This document shows, in pieces, positions 10,035 through 20,395 of a stretch of 56,956 nt of DNA (position 1 is the stretch's first letter; every line of letters begins with the position of its first letter). The notes below the pieces were generated by a model that worked only from the letters and a program-made list of their open reading frames with translations, was not told where the DNA came from and searched no databases. This DNA is from Gemmatimonadales bacterium (lineage in GTDB: Bacteria; Gemmatimonadota; Gemmatimonadetes; Longimicrobiales; Gaopeijiaceae). A program made the translations under genes and the position numbers. The DNA lies in the NCBI GenBank assembly GCA_007695195.1, contig REEG01000067.1:1-56956 (forward strand). The letters run 5' to 3'.

Positions 10035-12110
10035 ATGCAATGGTTCCATGATCTGAAAATCCGGCCGAAGCTTCTCCTCTCCTTTGGGCTTATGATCGCC
10101 CTTGCGGTAATCCTGGGGGGAGTAGGCCTCTTTTCCCTGAAATCCGTCGACGAGGGCCTGGACGTGGTAGTGAACCGGGAACTCCCGGGCGCAGTGGCCG
10201 CTGTGGGGTTCCAGAACTACGTCCACACTGTCCAGCGCGATGTGCGGACGGGAATTCTTCTGGACGGTTCCGATACAGCCTGGCAGGAGAGCTTCCGTAC
10301 CTCCATGGACCAGGCCCAACGGGAGCTCGCCATCGTAGGTGGTGCCATGGTCTCCGACGAGGGGATCGCCATGCACGCCAATAGCGAGACCCTCTTCGCT
10401 CAGTGGCGTGTCCTGAACGAGCAGATCTTCGATCTGGCCGCCAGAACGCAGGGCGAAGCCGCCCTGGAGCTCCTCCTGTCCCCGGAGTTGGCGGCCATTG
10501 CCGGAGACCTTGACCAAATGGCCTACCAGATGGCCGAGTGGAAGACGACCTACGCGGCAGGCGTCGGCGCCGATGGCCTCGCGACCTCCCAGCGTGCGTC
10601 TCTCATGGTCGTGGTGGTGCTGGGGTTCGCCGTCCTCCTGGGTCTCGGCCTTGCCTGGTGGCTCTCGGGCCTCATGGCCACCCAGATCCGGGAGTGCGGA
10701 GAACGGGCCGAATCCCTGCGGGCGGTCTGCATCACCGGGCTCGAAGGCGGAATCACCGCCCTGTCCCGCGGTGATCTGACCCAGGACGTCATCCCCAAGA
10801 CCCAGCCTCTTCAGATCCTGGGCAAGGACGAACTCGGTCAGCTGGCCGGGACCGTGAACGGGATGATCACCCAGGTGAAGCAGGCCATCACCTCCTATGA
10901 CACCTGCCGGGTCCAGATCCAGGCCATGGTGGACGACAGCGCCGGCCTGGCGGAAGCCGCCGTGGAGGGGCGCCTCAGCACCAGGGCGGACGCCGCTCGC
11001 CATCACGGGGACTTCCAGAGGATCGTCCAGGGCATCAACGATACCCTCGACGCCGTTCTCGATCCCATCGACGAGGCCGCCGCCGCGCTGGACCGGGTCG
11101 CCCAGCGCGACTTCACCGTTCAGGTGACGGGCGATTACCGAGGCGACCACGCCAAGATCAAGGACTCCCTCAACACCGCCGTCTCCGAGGTCCGTTCGGC
11201 GCTCCAGACGCTGGCCCAGTCGGCCCATGCCCTGGCCGCCTCCAGCGAGGAACTCTCGGCGGTCTCCACCCAGATCGGCAGCAACTCCGAAGAGACCACG
11301 GCCCAGGCCGGGGTGGTCTCTGCGGCTGCCGAACAGGTTTCCAAGAACGTCCAGACCGTCTCCACGGGGACCGAAGAGATGTCGGCCTCCATCAAGGAGA
11401 TCGCCAAGAATGCTTCCGACGCCGCTCGCGTGGCAGGTCAGGCCGTGACCATGGCCGATAGCACCAATTCCACGGTGGGCAAGCTTGGTGACTCGTCGGC
11501 AGAGATCGGTGAGGTGGTGAAGACCATCACCGCCATTGCCCAGCAGACCAACATCCTGGCGCTGAATGCCACCATCGAGGCGGCTCGGGCCGGCGAGGCA
11601 GGGAAGGGCTTTGCCGTCGTGGCCAACGAGGTGAAGGAGCTGGCCAAGGAGACGGCCGAGGCCACCGAAGACATCGGTCGTAAGATCGAAGCCATCCAGG
11701 TGGACAGTCAGGGCGCCGTCTCGGCCATCCAGCAGATCGGGCAGATCATCACCCAGATCAACGACATCCAGACCACCATCGCCAGCGCGGTGGAAGAGCA
11801 GACCGCCACCACCAACGAGATCGGACGCAACGTCTCCGAGGCGGCGCAGGGAAGCACCGAGATCGCCCAGAACATCACGGGCGTGGCCGAGGCCGCCGGA
11901 CAGACGTCCGCCGGCGCACAGCAGGGTCAGCAGGCTTCCAGCGAACTGGCCCGGATGGCGGCTGAACTCCAGACCCTGGTGGGTCAGTTCAAGTTCGAGA
12001 CTGAGGCGGGAAGTGGGCGCGGGGTGGCGGCTACCGCCGCCGTCCCGGCCGGCGCCGGGAACGGGAAGTCGACGAACGGACGCGGGCATTCCAGCACCCG
12101 TCGGTTCTGA
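10035..12110 (+). CDS. methyl-accepting chemotaxis protein
   Basis: A 691-residue transmembrane chemoreceptor. TM1 spans about residues 13-35 and TM2 about 190-213, enclosing a four-helix-bundle-type periplasmic sensor. After TM2 there appear to be several HAMP-like segments in a row ([16 protein letters not shown] and RGDHAKIK regions, about 265-380). The coiled-coil signalling domain follows, with the conserved hairpin tip around [20 protein letters not shown] and [13 protein letters not shown]. There is no NWETF-type CheR tether at the C-terminus, which is Ser/Arg-rich. It is the first gene of the chemotaxis operon and lies 38 bp before cheA. The ligand is unknown. Confidence 0.93.
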
Positions 12111-12148: not shown

Positions 12149-14716
12149 ATGGACGAGATCGACGAGATCGTTCGGGAATTCCTGACGGAAAGCCACGAGG
12201 GGCTCGACCAGATGGAGCGCCATCTGGTCGAGCTGGAGCAGCAGCCCGATGACAAGGAGCTGCTCAAGGCCATCTTCCGGTCGATCCATACCATCAAGGG
12301 AACGTGCGGCTTCCTCGGGTTCACCCGCCTGGAGTCGGTCACCCATCATGGCGAGAGCCTGCTGGCCCTCCTTCGGGACGGCCTCATGAAGCTCACCCCC
12401 GAGGTGACGAGCCTGCTTCTGCGGACCGTGGACACGGTGCGGGGGATCATGGCCACCATCGAAGCCGAGGGGCACGACGGAAAAGAGGACCACGCGGACC
12501 TCATCGCCGCTCTGGAAGAGGCGATCCGGGAACATGGGCGACGGAAGGGGGAGGGGCAGGGGCCACCTGCCGATCCCGAACCGACCAAGGTGGAGGCTCC
12601 CGAACCGACCAAGGTGGAGGCTGCGGAGCCGGCCACGGTTGAGGCTGCGGAATCGGCGCCGGTGGCAGCGTCCCCTGCCTCAGAGATGGGGTCGGCGGTT
12701 ACCGACAGCACCATCCGCGTGGATGTAGAGCTCCTGGACCGCCTCATGACGCAGGTGGGAGAGCTGGTTCTGTCGCGGAACCAGATCCTCCAGTATGCCA
12801 TGGACGTCAAGGACACCGCCTTCCAGGCGGCGAGCCAGCGTCTCAACCTCATCACCACGGAGCTGCAGGAAGGGGTCATGAAGACCCGGATGCAGCCTAT
12901 CGGGAATATCTGGCAGAAATTCCCCCGGGTGGTTCGCGATCTGTCGGTGAGCTTCGGCAAGGAGGTCCGGATCGAGATGCTCGGTAGGGACACCGAACTG
13001 GACAAGACCATCATCGAGGCCATCAAGGATCCCCTCACCCACCTCATCCGCAACTCCGTCGATCACGGCATCGAGTCACCGGAGGTGCGGGAGGCCGCCG
13101 GGAAACCCCGTGAGGGGTTGCTGCGCCTCCGCGCCTTCCACGAAGGCGGCCAGGTGAACATCGAGATCGCCGACGACGGGGCGGGGATCGACACCGAGGC
13201 CATCAAGCAGAAGGCGCTGGACAAGGGGCTGGTTACCCCCGACCAGGTGAGCCGCATGAGCGAGCGGGAGATGCAACAGCTCCTCTTCCTCCCCGGCCTC
13301 AGCACCGCCAAGACGGTGACCAACGTCTCGGGCCGGGGCGTGGGCATGGATGTGGTCAAGACCAACATCGAGAAGATCGGTGGCATGGTGGACCTCCAGA
13401 GTGTCCGGGGCGAAGGCACCACCCTGAAGATCAAGATTCCCCTGACCCTGGCCATCATCCCCGCGCTGGTGGTGACCTCCGAGGGCGAGCGTTTCGCCAT
13501 TCCCCAGGTCAACCTCCTGGAACTGGTTCGCCTCGAGGAAGGCATCGACGGACTGGAAGAGATCCACGGAGTCCCCGTATACCGGCTCCGCGGTGAGCTC
13601 CTCCCCATCGTCCATCTGGACCAGGTGCTGCATCTCGACCATTCCCGGTCCGAGTCGGACAAGGTGGACTTCGACGCGCTCATCGCCGCTCACCATGCCT
13701 GGCGAGGCCGCCTGGACCGCATCATCGCAGGCGAAGAGGAGGTGGATCGGGGGGTGGTGACCGATCCGGCCAAGTGCGCGCTGGGCAAATGGCTCTACGG
13801 GGTGGGGAAGGACCGCTTCGGGCAGCTCGCCGAATGGCGTCTCCTGGAGGGCATCCACCGGCGGATGCACGAGAGTCTCGGGCTCGTCATCGACGAGGTG
13901 GAGGCCGGAGAGACCGCGTTGGCCAAGGGGCATCTGGCCACGGTGGATGGCCTCATCCGGGAGACGGTGTCGGACATCGAGAAGCTCCGCGACGCAACCC
14001 TCTCCTTCCAGGATGCCACCATCGTGGTGCTTCGCGCCGATGATCGGAGCTTTGGCCTGGTGGTGGCGGAAGTCAACGAAACCACCGAGATCGTGGTGAA
14101 GCCTCTGGGTAAACAGCTCAAGGGTATCCCCGTCTTCGCCGGGGCCACCGTCATGGGCGATGGTCGGGTCGCTCTCATCCTCGACGTTCTGGGGCTGGCG
14201 CAGGAGGCCAGCGTGGTCAGCGCCGTCGGCAGGGAGCGGCACGTCTCAGGTCGGGCCGCGGCGGCTCAGGCGCTGGAACAGGACCTTGACACCCTCCTCA
14301 TTCTCGGGGTTGGTGATGCGCAACGTGTGGCCATCCCCATCGGGATGGTTGCCCGCCTGGAGGAGGTGCCTCGCCGGGCCCTGGAGACGGCGGGTGAGCA
14401 GGAGGTCATCCAGTACCGCGATTCCATTCTGCCCCTGCTGCGGCTTTCTCGTCTGCTGGGCGCGGAGGGCACGGGCGACGATCCGGAGAGCCTCCAGCTC
14501 GTGGTCTACAACGACGACGGCCGGGAGGTGGGCATCGTGGTGGACCGGATTCTGGACATCGTCGAGGACCGCGTGGTGGTGGAGAAACCTTCGGATCGAC
14601 CCGGACTGCTGGGTTCAGCCGTGATCCAGGGCCGGATCACCGACCTCCTGGATATCCGCCGGATCGTCCGCGATGTCCACGGTGGCAAGACCGAGCTTTC
14701 GGAAAGGACGGCCTGA
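12149..14716 (+). CDS. cheA: chemotaxis histidine kinase CheA with inserted CZB zinc-binding domain and two CheW domains
   Basis: An 855-residue kinase. The HPt domain carries H47 (SIHTIKG). A Pro/Glu linker with repeated EPTKVEA units (about 145-170) leads to the dimerisation helices, then the HATPase domain (NSVDHGIESP, DDGAGID, GRGVGMDVV) and a CheW-like domain. That CheW domain is interrupted at about residues 500-620 by a chemoreceptor zinc-binding module: H515-x2-W518, C543-A-L-G-K-W548, H570-x3-H574. The CheW fold resumes at ATIVVLRADD, and a second CheW-like domain ends the protein (about 710-840). CheA autophosphorylates and passes phosphate to CheY and CheB; the CZB insertion suggests direct sensing of zinc or a thiol-reactive oxidant by the kinase. 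Confidence 0.95.
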   Translation: MDEIDEIVREFLTESHEGLDQMERHLVELEQQPDDKELLKAIFRSIHTIKGTCGFLGFTRLESVTHHGESLLALLRDGLMKLTPEVTSLLLRTVDTVRGIMATIEAEGHDGKEDHADLIAALEEAIREHGRRKGEGQGPPADPEPTKVEAPEPTKVEAAEPATVEAAESAPVAASPASEMGSAVTDSTIRVDVELLDRLMTQVGELVLSRNQILQYAMDVKDTAFQAASQRLNLITTELQEGVMKTRMQPIGNIWQKFPRVVRDLSVSFGKEVRIEMLGRDTELDKTIIEAIKDPLTHLIRNSVDHGIESPEVREAAGKPREGLLRLRAFHEGGQVNIEIADDGAGIDTEAIKQKALDKGLVTPDQVSRMSEREMQQLLFLPGLSTAKTVTNVSGRGVGMDVVKTNIEKIGGMVDLQSVRGEGTTLKIKIPLTLAIIPALVVTSEGERFAIPQVNLLELVRLEEGIDGLEEIHGVPVYRLRGELLPIVHLDQVLHLDHSRSESDKVDFDALIAAHHAWRGRLDRIIAGEEEVDRGVVTDPAKCALGKWLYGVGKDRFGQLAEWRLLEGIHRRMHESLGLVIDEVEAGETALAKGHLATVDGLIRETVSDIEKLRDATLSFQDATIVVLRADDRSFGLVVAEVNETTEIVVKPLGKQLKGIPVFAGATVMGDGRVALILDVLGLAQEASVVSAVGRERHVSGRAAAAQALEQDLDTLLILGVGDAQRVAIPIGMVARLEEVPRRALETAGEQEVIQYRDSILPLLRLSRLLGAEGTGDDPESLQLVVYNDDGREVGIVVDRILDIVEDRVVVEKPSDRPGLLGSAVIQGRITDLLDIRRIVRDVHGGKTELSERTA

Positions 14717-14719
14717 GCC

Positions 14720-15178
14720 ATGAGCGCGACGAAACAGTTCTGCAGCTTCTTCCTGGAGGGACACACCTTCGGGGTGGAGGTGACCCGGGTCCAGGAGGTC
14801 CTTCGCTACCAGCCCATGACACCGGTGCCACTGGCACCCGAGGTGGTGGAAGGGCTCATCAACCTTCGTGGGCAGATCGTCACGGCCATCGACCTTCGCC
14901 GTCGCCTCGCCCTCCCGCCAAGACCGGCAGGGGCCTCTCCCATGAACGTCGTCGTACGAACCGACGACGGCTCGGTGAGTTTGTTGGTGGACGAGATCGG
15001 CGACGTGATGGAGGTGGCCGAAGAGACCTTCGAAGAACCCCCTGAAACGCTCAAGGGAGCTGCCAGGGAACTCATTCCCGGAGCATTCAAGCTGGACCGG
15101 CGCCTTCTCCTTGTGCTGGATACCGACCGGGTCATTTCTGGAATCGGGGTTGGCAGTGGCACCCCAGGAGACGGATGA
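14720..15178 (+). CDS. cheW: chemotaxis adaptor CheW
   Basis: A 152-residue single CheW domain (FFLEGHTFGVEVTRVQEVLR, NLRGQIVTAIDLRRRL, LLVDEIGDVMEV), the scaffold linking receptors to CheA. It begins 4 bp after the cheA stop, and its stop overlaps the start of the cheY-like gene. Confidence 0.95.
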   Translation: MSATKQFCSFFLEGHTFGVEVTRVQEVLRYQPMTPVPLAPEVVEGLINLRGQIVTAIDLRRRLALPPRPAGASPMNVVVRTDDGSVSLLVDEIGDVMEVAEETFEEPPETLKGAARELIPGAFKLDRRLLLVLDTDRVISGIGVGSGTPGDG

Positions 15179-15549
15179 TGCGAGCCCTCATTGTGGATGA
15201 CTCCCGAGCCATGCGGCTGGTTATCCGAAGGATTCTGGGCGAACTGGGCGTGCCTGCGGAGGAAGCCGCCGACGGAGCCCAGGCCCTGGACCTTCTCGGC
15301 GGTGGGGTCACGCCGGATGTGGCCCTGGTGGACTGGAATATGCCCGGTATGACCGGTGTGGAGTTGGTTCAGGCGGTGCGGGCCGATCCCCGTTTCGCCG
15401 GCCTCCGTATCATGATGGTGACCTCGGAAACAGGGGCCGACCGGATCCAGGAGGCGCTGGCATGCGGAGCCGATGAGTACCTCATGAAGCCCTTCACCCC
15501 GGATGTTCTCCGGGAGAAGCTGAACCTCCTCACCAATTCGGAGGTCTGA
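15175..15549 (+). CDS. cheY: CheY-like single-domain response regulator
   Basis: A 124-residue receiver domain with the acidic pair D9/D10, the phospho-acceptor D53 (LVDWNMPG), the T/S switch region (MVTSE) and K105 (MKPF). It would be phosphorylated by the neighbouring CheA. It overlaps the cheW stop (ATGATG) and has AGGAGA as a ribosome-binding site. Confidence 0.93.
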   Translation: MMRALIVDDSRAMRLVIRRILGELGVPAEEAADGAQALDLLGGGVTPDVALVDWNMPGMTGVELVQAVRADPRFAGLRIMMVTSETGADRIQEALACGADEYLMKPFTPDVLREKLNLLTNSEV

Positions 15550-15551
15550 CC

Positions 15552-16679
15552 ATGTCTCCTATCCGCGCACTGGTCGTCGATGACGCCGTCGTGGTGCGAC
15601 GGATGGTCAGCGATGTGCTCGACGAGGATCCGGGGATCGAGGTCGCGGGAGTGGCCGCCAATGGTCGGATCGCCCTGCAGAAGGTCCCGCAGGTTTCGCC
15701 GGATGTCATCATCCTGGACGTGGAAATGCCGGTGATGGACGGCCTGGAGACCCTGAAGGCGCTGGGGAAGGAGTACCCGGACCTTCCGGTGATCATGTTC
15801 AGCACCCTCACCGAGCGCGGGGCCGAAGTCACCCTCGACGCCCTGTCACTGGGGGCCTCGGACTACGTGACCAAACCCTCCAATGTGGGAAGCGTGGTCC
15901 TGGCCCGTCAGCGAATTCGGGAGGAGTTGATCCCCCGGATCTACGCCCTGACCGGCAAGGGAACGCCGGGACTGCCCCCCCCGCGCTCCGCACCGCGGCG
16001 GCAGGTGGTGCCGACCCCCAAACCGGTGACCGCTACGACCCGGCTCCGACCCTCCCTTCCCGGGCGTGTTACGGCGGTGGTGATCGGCGTGTCCACAGGA
16101 GGACCCAATGCCCTGGCGGAGGTGATCCCGGCGCTTCCTCCGGACTTTCCGGTGCCCGTGCTCATCGTGCAGCACATGCCCCCGCTCTTCACCAGGCTTC
16201 TGGCGGACCGCCTCTCAAGCGGGGGGGGGCTCCCGGCGGAAGAGGCGGTGTCCGGAACTCGGATTCTCCCCGGTCGTGCGCTCCTGGCGCCCGGCGACTG
16301 GCACATGGAGGTAGAGGTCCGGGACTCGGCCCATCTGGTCCGATTGCACCAGGGTCCCCAGGAGAATTCCTGTCGTCCTGCCGTGGACGTGCTCTTTCGT
16401 TCGGCGGCGCGTGTATTCGGCCCCGGCACCCTCGGCATCGTCCTGACCGGCATGGGAAAGGATGGTCTCCGGGGCTCGGAGGACATCCACCGGGCAGGGG
16501 GACGGATCATCGTGCAGGACCAGGCGAGCTCCGTTGTCTGGGGCATGCCTGGATACGTGGCGGAAGCCGGGCTGGCGCATCGCATTCTGCCCCTCGACCG
16601 GGTGGCTGAGGAGTTGCGACGCGTCGTCGGTACCGGCATCCGACCGAACCCCTTCGCGACCAAGGTCGCAACCGGATAG
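15552..16679 (+). CDS. cheB: chemotaxis methylesterase/glutaminase CheB
   Basis: A 375-residue protein with an N-terminal receiver domain (D56 in ILDVEMP) and a C-terminal methylesterase with catalytic triad S181 (GVSTGGP), H208 (QHMPP) and D304 (GMGKDG). It removes methyl groups from receptor glutamates during adaptation. The gene contains a C8 run (15975-15982) and a G9 run (16221-16229); the reading frame is intact here, but both are slippage-prone. Confidence 0.95.
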   Translation: MSPIRALVVDDAVVVRRMVSDVLDEDPGIEVAGVAANGRIALQKVPQVSPDVIILDVEMPVMDGLETLKALGKEYPDLPVIMFSTLTERGAEVTLDALSLGASDYVTKPSNVGSVVLARQRIREELIPRIYALTGKGTPGLPPPRSAPRRQVVPTPKPVTATTRLRPSLPGRVTAVVIGVSTGGPNALAEVIPALPPDFPVPVLIVQHMPPLFTRLLADRLSSGGGLPAEEAVSGTRILPGRALLAPGDWHMEVEVRDSAHLVRLHQGPQENSCRPAVDVLFRSAARVFGPGTLGIVLTGMGKDGLRGSEDIHRAGGRIIVQDQASSVVWGMPGYVAEAGLAHRILPLDRVAEELRRVVGTGIRPNPFATKVATG

Positions 16680-16684
16680 CCCCC

Positions 16685-17503
16685 ATGGCCCTCGCCGTCG
16701 ACGACTTCGCTTTCGTCCAGGCACTGGTGCGCCGCAAGGCCGCCATTGTCCTGGACCCCGGGAAGGAATATCTGGTGGAGAGTCGGTTGCTCCCCCTGGC
16801 CCGCTCCGAAGGCTTCGCCAGCATCGCCGGCCTTCTGGATGACCTCCGGAAGAACCCCCACAACGGGCTCAATCGGCGTGTGGTTCAGGCCATGACCACC
16901 AATGAAACCGCCTTCTTCCGCGATGGACACCCCTTCGAGATCCTCCGCACCACGGTGATCCCGGAGGTCATGGAGCACAAACGGAGCACCCGCCGCATCG
17001 ATATCTGGTCGGCGGCCTGTTCCAGCGGTCAGGAGGCGGTCTCCATCGGGATGACCCTCAAGGAGCACTTCCCCCAACTGGTGGGCTGGACGGTGCGAAT
17101 CCTCTGCACCGACCTCTCCACGGATATGCTGGCCCGGTGCCGCGCGGGACGGTATTCCCAACTGGAGGTGAATCGAGGTTTGCCGGCGTCCCTTCTGGTC
17201 AAGCACTTCAGGAACGAGGGAATCGAGTGGGTGGCTTCGTCCGATCTACGCCGGATGATGGAGTGCAAGGAGCTGAATCTGGCGGAAGCGTGGCCGGTTC
17301 TCCCCCGATTTGACGTGGTGTTCATGCGGAACGTGATGATCTACTTCGATGTGGAGACCAAGCGTTCCATTCTCCGGCGGCTGCGCTCGGTGATGAGACC
17401 CGGCGGATGGCTGTTCCTGGGAGGAGCCGAAACCACCCTGAATCTGGACGACGCCTGGCAGCGCACGCCGGTGGGCCGCAGTGTCGTCTATCGATCCCCC
17501 TGA
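16685..17503 (+). CDS. cheR: chemotaxis methyltransferase CheR
   Basis: A 272-residue SAM-dependent protein-glutamate O-methyltransferase that methylates receptors. The NETAFFRD motif is at residues 73-80 and the SAM-binding loop reads SAACSSGQE. An all-alpha N-terminal domain precedes the catalytic domain, and the MRNVMIYFD motif lies near the C-terminus. It follows cheB by 5 bp. Confidence 0.95.
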   Translation: MALAVDDFAFVQALVRRKAAIVLDPGKEYLVESRLLPLARSEGFASIAGLLDDLRKNPHNGLNRRVVQAMTTNETAFFRDGHPFEILRTTVIPEVMEHKRSTRRIDIWSAACSSGQEAVSIGMTLKEHFPQLVGWTVRILCTDLSTDMLARCRAGRYSQLEVNRGLPASLLVKHFRNEGIEWVASSDLRRMMECKELNLAEAWPVLPRFDVVFMRNVMIYFDVETKRSILRRLRSVMRPGGWLFLGGAETTLNLDDAWQRTPVGRSVVYRSP

Positions 17504-17513
17504 GGAGGATCCC

Positions 17514-17981
17514 ATGATCGCCTTCTTCCCCGACGCCATCCGGACCGTTACGGAACATGTCTGGACGGAGTTCCTGGGATGCCCGGTGATCCCCGAGGTG
17601 GATCACCCGGATGAACCCACCATGGAGGGCCGGATCCTCCTGAGAGGCGCCTGGGCCGGAACCATCACGGTCCGTTGCAGTGAGCCCCTGGCGCGATTCG
17701 CCACCTCCCGGATGTTCGGGATTCCCGAAGGGGAGGTGGGTGCCGAGGAGATGCAGGATGCACTGGATGAGTTGGCCAATATGACGGGAGGGAATTTGAA
17801 GGCCCTCCTACCCACTCCCTGTGATATCTGCCTGCCACCAGGGGATCCGTCCCACCTCGGACCGACTCGGGTGGTGGGGGAGGTGCGATTCGAATGCAAC
17901 GGAGAGCCCCTGCAGGTAGCCATGGCGCAGTTGAGCGGAGTAGATCGAAACAGATCGACGTCGGATCCGGTGGCGTCGTGA
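17514..17981 (+). CDS. cheX: CheX/CheC-type chemotaxis phosphatase
   Basis: A 155-residue protein with the CheC/CheX/FliY-family active-site pattern E86-x2-N89 in DELANMTGGN, which dephosphorylates CheY-P. An AGGAGG Shine-Dalgarno 5 bases before the ATG at 17514 favours this start over an in-frame ATG at 17481. It provides the signal-termination arm of the pathway, in place of CheZ. The stop overlaps the GTG start of the downstream hybrid kinase. Confidence 0.85.
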   Translation: MIAFFPDAIRTVTEHVWTEFLGCPVIPEVDHPDEPTMEGRILLRGAWAGTITVRCSEPLARFATSRMFGIPEGEVGAEEMQDALDELANMTGGNLKALLPTPCDICLPPGDPSHLGPTRVVGEVRFECNGEPLQVAMAQLSGVDRNRSTSDPVAS

Positions 17982-20395
17982 GCGCCGAGGCTTCGTCGGA
18001 TCCGATTCTCGATCCCGCACGCCTGGCGGCGCTGGAGTCCACCGGCCTCCTGGGCTCACCGTCCGAGCCGTCCTTTGACCGCCTTGTACGGTTGGCCACC
18101 CACCTTGTGGACGCTCCTATGGGAGCCGTCACCCTTATTGCCGAGGACCACCTCTTCTTCAAGAGTCTGGTGGGCATCGAGGGAGAGGTGGCCCAGGATC
18201 GAACCGCCACCCTGGGGCATTCATTCTGTCGGCGCACGCTGGATGCAGGAGCGCCGGTGGTCATGGAGGATGTCTCCGCGGATCCTCGGGCCAAGGACTC
18301 GGCGGCGGTGGTCGAGTTGGGTATTGCGGCCTACGCCGGGTTCCCCGTCCGTGCGCCCAACGGCCAGATCCTGGGTGCCCTGGCTGTGGCGGATCGGAGT
18401 CCCAGGCAATGGGACTCCCGGGACCTGGAGGGTCTCCGGGAAATTGCAGGCGCCGTGTCGGCCGAGATCCATCTGCGGTATGCCCTCTCCCACCTGGAAC
18501 TGAAGCGCGCAGAGTCCAGGGAAAACGAGATTCGCCTGCGACAGATCACCGAAAACCTCTCCGAAGCGGTCTGGATCTACAGCTTCGATTCCCGCACCGC
18601 GCTCTACGTCAGTCCCAGGGCGGAATCCATCTGGGGAATTCCTCTCCAGGAGCTCTACGACAATCCCCTCAACGTCCTGCGGCAGATTCCCCGCTCACAT
18701 CGTGGGAAGGTGCGCAAGGCCATCAGTCGAGGGCATCGAACGGAGGTCCGATGTCGCTTCGTGCGCCGCTCGGACGGGGCCCTGAGGTGGGTGCGGATCG
18801 TCGGTGTTCCCATCCGTGACGCTTCGGGTCGTCCCTACCGGGTTGCGGGGATCGTGGAGGATATCACCGCCACCCGGCAGATGGCCGAACGGGTACGGGC
18901 CCGCGAACTCCACTATCGAAGGTTGACGGCGGCAAGTAGGGATGCCGTCTTCGCCGTAGACAGTGAATTGCGGATCACCGAATTGAATCCATCCGGCGAG
19001 AAGATGCTGGGGTTGGAGCCCAGCGCCAGCCTCGGCCGACCGGTGCTCCCCCTTCTCCATCCGGACGATCGGAGTGAGATCGAGGAACGTGCGCGAAGAA
19101 TCTTCGATGGAAGGGATGAGGCCGGCGAGATGGAGGTTCGCGTCGTGGGTGGTGGTGGAAAGCCCCGGACGCTGCGGGTGACGGCGGCCCCCATCCGCGA
19201 ACCGGGAGGGGTGTCGGGCATCCACGGAGTGGCCAGGGACATCACAGAGGAGACCTCAGGCGATGGCGACAAGAGGCGGGCCCAACGATTGGCCAGCCTG
19301 GGGACGCTGGTGGGAGGGGTGGCCCACGAGCTGAATGACCCGCTCACATCGATCCGTGGGCTGCTCCAACTCCTGTTGGAAGGAGAAGTCGATCCGGATC
19401 GTCGAGATCTGCTGGAGGTGACCGTTCGGGAGGCGGAGCGTTCCGCCGCCCTGGTGTCGGACCTGCGTCGGCTGGCCCAGGGATCCACGCCCCTGGACGC
19501 CCGGAAGAAGACCCCGATCCAGGTGAACGAGATCGTGACCGAGGTCGTTCGCCTCCGTCGAGCCGGCATCGATGCTCAGGGGATCAATCTCAAGCTGGAC
19601 CTGGCGGAACGGCTTCCCCTCATCAAGGGGGATCAGCCACAGCTCGAGCAGATGCTCCTGAACCTTGTCGTCAACGCAGAGCAGGCGTTGAGGGATGTCG
19701 AGCATCCTCCAAAGACCCTGATCGTCCGAACCCGACCCAGCCGTGACGGGGTGACGCTTTCCGTCTTCGATACGGGGCCGGGAATCGCCCCGGAGCAACT
19801 CAGACGGATTTTCGAGCCCTTCTGGACCACAAGGTCCGGAACTCAGGGGCGCGGACTGGGGCTGAGTCTGGTCCACCGCATCGTAGTCGATCATAAGGGC
19901 GAGGTGGATGTTCAGAGCGAGCCGGGCGGGGGGACACTGTTCCTGGTCAAGCTCCCGCCCCTTGCCGGGGAGCGTTCCGAGCAGGAGCATCCTGAACTGC
20001 CTCCATTATCGGAAACCTCCGTCCGGGGGAAGCGGATTCTGGTGGTGGATGACGAGCCCGGAGTCAGGGCCGTGCTGGACCGATTCCTGACCCGCTGTGG
20101 GCACCAGGTCACCCTCGCCGAAGACGGGGCGGTGGCGCTGGACCGGATCGAGCAGGCGCCGGAATCCTATGACCTCATCCTGACTGACCTGAGAATGCCC
20201 GGAATCGATGGCGGAAACCTGGTTCGCCGTCTCAAACAGAGGCCGGAGTACGCGAACCGGGTGGTGTTCGTCACAGGGGACGTCATGGCCCCCGAGGTAC
20301 GCGGCCCTCATCTCGAGACGGCCATCCCGGTTGTTCAGAAGCCCTTTGATCTCGATCAGATCCGCCAGGTCGTGGCTCGACGGACCGGCACCTGA
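17978..20395 (+). CDS. hybrid sensor histidine kinase (GAF-PAS-PAS-HisKA-HATPase-REC)
   Basis: An 805-residue soluble hybrid kinase starting at a GTG that overlaps the cheX stop (GTGA). An N-terminal GAF domain (about 15-175) precedes two PAS domains (about 195-310 and 315-425). HisKA has H450 in AHELNDPLTSIRG, the HATPase has DTGPGIAP and GRGLGLSLV, and a C-terminal receiver has D737 (LTDLRMPG). It has no membrane segment, so it senses a cytoplasmic signal. Its place as the last gene of the chemotaxis operon suggests that it feeds into, or reads, the same behaviour circuit. It ends 3 bp from the converging DUF3014 gene. Confidence 0.92.
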   Translation: MSAEASSDPILDPARLAALESTGLLGSPSEPSFDRLVRLATHLVDAPMGAVTLIAEDHLFFKSLVGIEGEVAQDRTATLGHSFCRRTLDAGAPVVMEDVSADPRAKDSAAVVELGIAAYAGFPVRAPNGQILGALAVADRSPRQWDSRDLEGLREIAGAVSAEIHLRYALSHLELKRAESRENEIRLRQITENLSEAVWIYSFDSRTALYVSPRAESIWGIPLQELYDNPLNVLRQIPRSHRGKVRKAISRGHRTEVRCRFVRRSDGALRWVRIVGVPIRDASGRPYRVAGIVEDITATRQMAERVRARELHYRRLTAASRDAVFAVDSELRITELNPSGEKMLGLEPSASLGRPVLPLLHPDDRSEIEERARRIFDGRDEAGEMEVRVVGGGGKPRTLRVTAAPIREPGGVSGIHGVARDITEETSGDGDKRRAQRLASLGTLVGGVAHELNDPLTSIRGLLQLLLEGEVDPDRRDLLEVTVREAERSAALVSDLRRLAQGSTPLDARKKTPIQVNEIVTEVVRLRRAGIDAQGINLKLDLAERLPLIKGDQPQLEQMLLNLVVNAEQALRDVEHPPKTLIVRTRPSRDGVTLSVFDTGPGIAPEQLRRIFEPFWTTRSGTQGRGLGLSLVHRIVVDHKGEVDVQSEPGGGTLFLVKLPPLAGERSEQEHPELPPLSETSVRGKRILVVDDEPGVRAVLDRFLTRCGHQVTLAEDGAVALDRIEQAPESYDLILTDLRMPGIDGGNLVRRLKQRPEYANRVVFVTGDVMAPEVRGPHLETAIPVVQKPFDLDQIRQVVARRTGT

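Follow-up and report, generated by a model that had tools for sequence, protein, structure and literature searches.

The cheA gene at this locus raises the question of whether the chemotaxis kinase CheA can itself carry a sensor and, if so, what such a sensor would do to signalling. In a survey of thousands of CheAs, the protein is said to have no sensor domain, and CZB domains go unmentioned (Berry et al. 2023, PMC10782961). An earlier note on this DNA proposed that a zinc-binding CZB domain sits inside the first CheW domain of the kinase encoded here, and we followed this proposal through the window (the whole 56,956-nucleotide stretch analysed), the rest of the genome, and large genome and plasmid collections.

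The gene lies in a complete chemotaxis operon on the + strand of the window (MCP-CheA-CheW-CheY-CheB-CheR-CheX; Table 1), the one chemosensory operon detected in the genome; flagellin genes are located elsewhere, and a profile search of the genome returned this protein as both its only CheA and its only CZB. The core domains by which a CheA is recognised (i.e., Hpt, H-kinase_dim, HATPase_c and CheW) all occur in the one protein, with neither a P2 nor a REC domain found by Pfam. The kinase motifs are intact in the sequence (HTIKG with H47, HLIRNSVDHGIE, DDGAGID and GRGVGMD), and by these motifs the CheA is apparently otherwise complete and active. At the far end of the operon, the CheX frame (17481-17981) overlaps the called start of a GAF-PAS hybrid histidine kinase (17894-20395) by 88 bases; the true start of the latter is probably later than called.

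Table 1. Chemotaxis genes of the window, with the domains and predicted zinc ligands of the CheA.
Feature	Positions	Strand	Basis or remark
MCP chemoreceptor, 4HB-HAMP-MCPsignal, without CZB	10035..12110	+	Pfam
cheA, 855 aa, P1(Hpt)-P3-P4-P5[CZB]-CheW2	12149..14716	+	ORF list and Pfam
Hpt (P1) domain	12164..12442	+	Pfam, residues 6-98, E 8.9e-15
Dimerisation (P3) domain, H-kinase_dim	12707..12886	+	Pfam, residues 187-246
HATPase_c (P4) kinase domain	13028..13447	+	Pfam, residues 294-433
CheW domain 1 (P5), first half	13463..13642	+	CheW profile 2-67 and modelled P5 fold
CZB insert with short linkers, ~ residues 499-622	13643..14014	+	Pfam core 13691-13879; missing from orthologues; modelled helical bundle
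H515, predicted zinc ligand	13691..13693	+	Invariant in 34 CZB
C543, predicted zinc ligand / redox thiol	13775..13777	+	Invariant in 34 CZB
H570, predicted zinc ligand	13856..13858	+	Invariant in 34 CZB
H574, predicted zinc ligand	13868..13870	+	Invariant in 34 CZB
CheW domain 1 (P5), second half	14015..14206	+	CheW profile 68-136
Second CheW domain, uninterrupted	14297..14674	+	Pfam and CheW profile
CheW adaptor	14720..15178	+	Pfam and CheW profile; the genome's only stand-alone CheW found
CheY	15175..15549	+	
CheB	15552..16679	+	
CheR	16685..17503	+	
CheX phosphatase	17481..17981	+	

The insert is a genuine CZB domain. Pfam matches PF13682 at CheA residues 515-577 (E 2.4e-10; 41.1 bits against a gathering cut-off of 29.4), and the insert scored alone reaches 45.2 bits. 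The 3His/1Cys site, the HxxW motif and the CxLG[KR]W motif are all present, eight residues (H515, W518, C543, L545, G546, W548, H570 and H574) are invariant in an alignment with 33 other CZB sequences, and the spaced ligand pattern arose in 0 of 20,000 shuffles of the CheA protein. In NCBIfam, residues 507-616 independently align to the N-terminal portion of the diguanylate cyclase model PRK09894. The CZB pattern that the earlier note had picked out from the sequence alone (H515-x2-W518, C543-ALGKW and H570-x3-H574) thus holds, with every residue number right and the Pfam match above its cut-off. Comparisons with known structures are less telling: phmmer of the insert against the PDB gave weak matches only (3t9o at E 0.34), and the domain modelled alone by AlphaFold2—a confident helical bundle, pLDDT 93—has 3t9o, the CZB of DgcZ, as its top Foldseek match (probability 1.00, TM 0.60/0.66, but E 0.16). 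In VIA, the same pair (Z 11.2, rmsd 3.2 Å over 115 residues) ties with unrelated helical bundles, so that the fold is supportive rather than specific and the sequence motifs carry the identification.

The CZB sits in the loop joining the two lobes of the CheW-like P5. Pfam matches CheW in three stretches of the protein, and a whole-genome-mode search places CheW profile positions 2-67 at 13463-13657 and 68-136 at 14012-14206, i.e., the CZB splits one CheW domain. The AlphaFold2 model of CheA residues 186-712 (input alignment of 11 CheAs and 12 CZBs) comprises P3-P4-P5 with a helical bundle at 508-618 set between P5 strands; pLDDT is mostly 90-96, with low confidence in linker residues 497-503, and the pTM of 0.51 makes the orientation of domains in the model unreliable. 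In the mixed P5/CZB alignment used, the CZB C-termini were imperfectly aligned and three Sideroxydans P5 rows were out of place. Against the P5 of T. maritima (4jpb_A), 131 of 131 residues align at 1.7 Å (Z 19.8) over model residues 249-499, which include the insert, so in the predicted model the two CheW halves pair around the CZB; the same loop in T. maritima is only a few residues long, the aligned blocks breaking off at chain position 253 and resuming at 257. The placement between the halves of the first CheW domain is thereby borne out by the profile split and the model alike, and the structure prediction that the earlier note had called for returned a complete P5 fold around a helical bundle. 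The description of CheA as a protein without a sensor domain (Berry et al. 2023) does not hold here, where a CZB sensor domain is present; the absence of a sensor is a described tendency, not a requirement, and the protein is still a CheA.

As judged from sequence comparison with its relatives, the CZB insertion is specific to this lineage. Two-CheW CheA orthologues in other families of the class are 60-65% identical to this CheA across the matched N-terminal stretch (residues 1-499), and 14 of 14 class orthologues keep both CheW domains but lack the CZB and have a short linker in its place: between the anchors LLPxVxL and I(V/A)V there are 134 residues here vs 16-23 in these orthologues. The earlier note had named conservation of the ligands in orthologues as a test; with the insert missing there, the comparison is with other CZB domains, in which every ligand is kept. 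That the phylum is Gemmatimonadota is borne out by a genome listed in the same class (G183), one contig of which is identical, over the 6 kb compared, to a plasmid of Gemmatirosa kalamazoonensis. Within the same family, the alignment to one CheA (G011) passes straight from residue 503 of the query to residue 625, the insert being absent. Four genomes of the same genus (G001-G004; two at least 93% complete) gave no match to CheA, which indicates that the chemotaxis operon is unevenly distributed across the genus.

An architecture that appears in no other genome examined, in a fragmented, metagenome-type assembly (306 contigs), could in principle result from the chimeric joining of a CheA gene to a CZB gene, and we consider this highly improbable. 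The reading frame is single and uninterrupted, both junctions fall within the loop that holds the orthologues' linker, both flanks match the same orthologues, and the GC and GC3 of the insert match those of the rest of cheA. By this composition, the insert is also not a very recent import. In a tree of 46 CZB domains, the CheA-CZB falls among CZB-only and long CZB proteins, although its exact place is weak, and outside a CheW-CZB clade (100/98). Descent of the insert from the phylum's CheW-CZBs, which form that separate clade, is therefore unsupported. The insert begins like a CZB-only protein (DFDALIAAHHAW), and the simplest history would have a free-standing CZB gene enter the P5 region.

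The CheA-CZB architecture was seen in one genome only. PF13682 occurs in 10 of 394 class genomes and 13 of 395 phylum genomes (overlapping sets), in a CheA only here; a scan of genome contigs with the single insert sequence gave no match. A CZB alignment scan of 84,980 species returned 402 CZB relatives, and the best 80 of these, examined ORF by ORF, contained no CZB and P5 in one ORF; its lid pattern was strict ([DP][NDA]xC[AED]LG[KQ]W[LI]), so that other CZB variants in CheA could escape it. With a P5-CZB-P5 query, 396 Acidobacteriota and 398 Pseudomonadota genomes yielded no second CheA-CZB: one candidate (G839) proved to be a CheA whose insert is low-complexity rather than CZB, and another (G893) an MCP with a terminal CZB. 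Nor did 72,556 plasmids hold one, the two-ended query matches there being two separate pieces. In all, no second case was found in ~1,200 genomes of three phyla; given the best-80 scope, the strict pattern and the sampling, more may exist elsewhere.

These searches also brought up CZB-only genes in other settings. In Sideroxydans, three (L151:2668-8359, L134:1676-7251 and L161:2661-8381) lie within ~200 bases of the end of a CheA-type kinase; these kinases are 1,680-1,720 aa long and, in the two scanned, hold several Hpt, P4, CheW and REC domains. The adjacency suggests that a free-standing CZB may act on CheA in trans. A viral contig (L079:2323-4357) carries a CZB-only gene just 3' of a lambda-family portal gene, i.e., a phage-carried CZB. 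The CheA candidate rejected above, an Acidobacteriota two-CheW CheA (L182:2476-5286, - strand), has a ~80-residue low-complexity, charged and proline-containing insert in the same P5 loop.

What the nested domain does can be approached through precedents. Zinc inhibits the cyclase DgcZ via its CZB, and DgcZ C52 reacts with HOCl (PMC8262984); in the receptor TlpD, small changes at the zinc site go along with shifts 140 Å away, at the kinase interface (PMC12871147). P5 has been proposed to act mainly by constraining the orientation of P4 (PMC6954272), and a sensor fused to CheW has been proposed to modulate CheA (PMC10653840). Taken together, the DgcZ, TlpD and P5-P4 precedents suggest that zinc occupancy of the insert would change P5 and hence kinase output or array contacts. 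In such a scheme, Zn2+ would be held at a predicted site formed by H515, C543, H570 and H574; loss of the metal—whether through low bioavailable Zn2+ or through oxidation of C543—would loosen or rearrange the bundle, as in DgcZ and TlpD; and the bundle, tied at both ends to the lobes of P5, would shift P5 and so alter P4 docking or the contacts of P5 in the P5-CheW ring. Kinase output would thereby be scaled inside the core unit, on top of receptor input. The coupling of sensor to P5, its sign and its ligand we infer. We think it probable, at roughly 60%, that Zn2+ or redox state acts through the P5 CZB to tune the activity of CheA or the assembly of arrays, with both zinc binding and kinase control as predictions.

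The cue itself would more plausibly be metal or redox state than hypochlorous acid, which the earlier note had named: the organism shows no sign of host association, which makes HOCl the least likely natural cue. A preprint of 2026 makes the case that CZB domains read bioavailable Zn2+ as a proxy or messenger for external redox potential (PMC13370339). The domain, its nesting and the P5 fold support an input to the kinase itself; the arrangement of a CZB within a CheW domain is not new. Possible, though held with some reserve, is the stronger version in which CheA is also a sensor, with Zn2+ or redox state acting in cis to set the gain or output of all array receptors at once, or acting without receptor input.

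Two other roles must be weighed against tuning by zinc. The CZB may be a structural or dimerising insert that cross-links P5 or array neighbours without any zinc gating of the kinase. The site is a variable loop: besides the low-complexity Acidobacteriota insert, there is the case of Desulfobacteraceae CheAs with two CheWs, the first of which is interrupted by a 50-aa insert (PMC10782961), which indicates that this loop region takes insertions, and inserts here can be inert, as the Acidobacteriota case illustrates. Helix 1 of the CZB moreover forms a homodimer interface in DgcZ (PMC8262984), and the low-confidence linkers of the model could uncouple the bundle from P5. Against this, the domain has diverged far (terminal branch of 1.67 in the tree) and yet keeps every zinc ligand and the CxLGKW lid motif, a pattern suggestive of selection acting at the metal site; we regard a purely structural role as unlikely. 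Less likely again is that the CZB acts mainly on assembly—zinc state would alter the entry of P5 into CheA-CheW rings, or the balance between P5 and the second CheW domain—and not on catalysis in a formed unit. The insert does lie in P5, the array-building domain, a whole second CheW domain is present, and the class orthologues share the two-CheW layout; on the other side, F5-class systems commonly have two-CheW CheAs that lack a CZB (PMC10782961), and an action on assembly overlaps with the tuning of CheA by Zn2+ or redox state that we favour.

If CheA does act as a sensor, this would contradict the view of CheA as a protein without an input domain (PMC10782961). A sensor nested in the coupling domain of the kinase is a compact natural test of how P5 movement controls P4, and the CheA-CZB likewise lets one ask if array gain can be set by metal or redox state at a level below that of the receptors.

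Among known systems, the closest in arrangement are the CheW-CZB proteins. A catalogue of 10,140 CZB proteins in seven architectures includes CheW-CZB (1.4%, most abundant in Clostridia) and no CheA (Perkins et al. 2021, PMC8262984), and we found no description of a CZB in CheA in the openly accessible main texts searched. Five stand-alone CheW-CZBs in Gemmatimonadota (L033, L036, L040, L041 and L042, one of which ends at a contig edge after its CZB) carry their CZB at this lobe junction as well. They share with the CheA its nesting in a CheW-type domain but are stand-alone adaptors, whereas in the CheA one ORF also codes for HATPase_c, Hpt and P3; their lid motif is of the CAFGKWYD type vs the CALGKWLYG type here. 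CZB-only proteins of Gemmatimonadota and other phyla resemble the insert in their start (DFDxxIxAHxxW), lid (CALGKWLYGxG) and HxxxH but are free-standing, some of them coded just downstream of cheA (L134, L151, L161). The two-CheW CheAs of the phylum (e.g., G117, G307, G141, G253) have the P1-P3-P4-CheW-CheW layout and a similar operon, without the CZB. E. coli DgcZ (3t9o) and H. pylori TlpD share the 3His/1Cys site and four-helix fold, but there the CZB sits at a terminus, driving a cyclase in the one and a receptor coiled coil in the other. The Treponema CheWS (CheW-CheRlike; PMC10653840) also places a sensor domain on an array component rather than on a receptor, though this sensor binds SAM and is fused to CheW, not nested in CheA. 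The move of a CZB into CheA thus appears unreported, its novelty lying in the host protein and not in the nesting itself, and the case shows that the CheW lobe junction accepts whole sensor domains in adaptor and kinase alike, seemingly through separate events.
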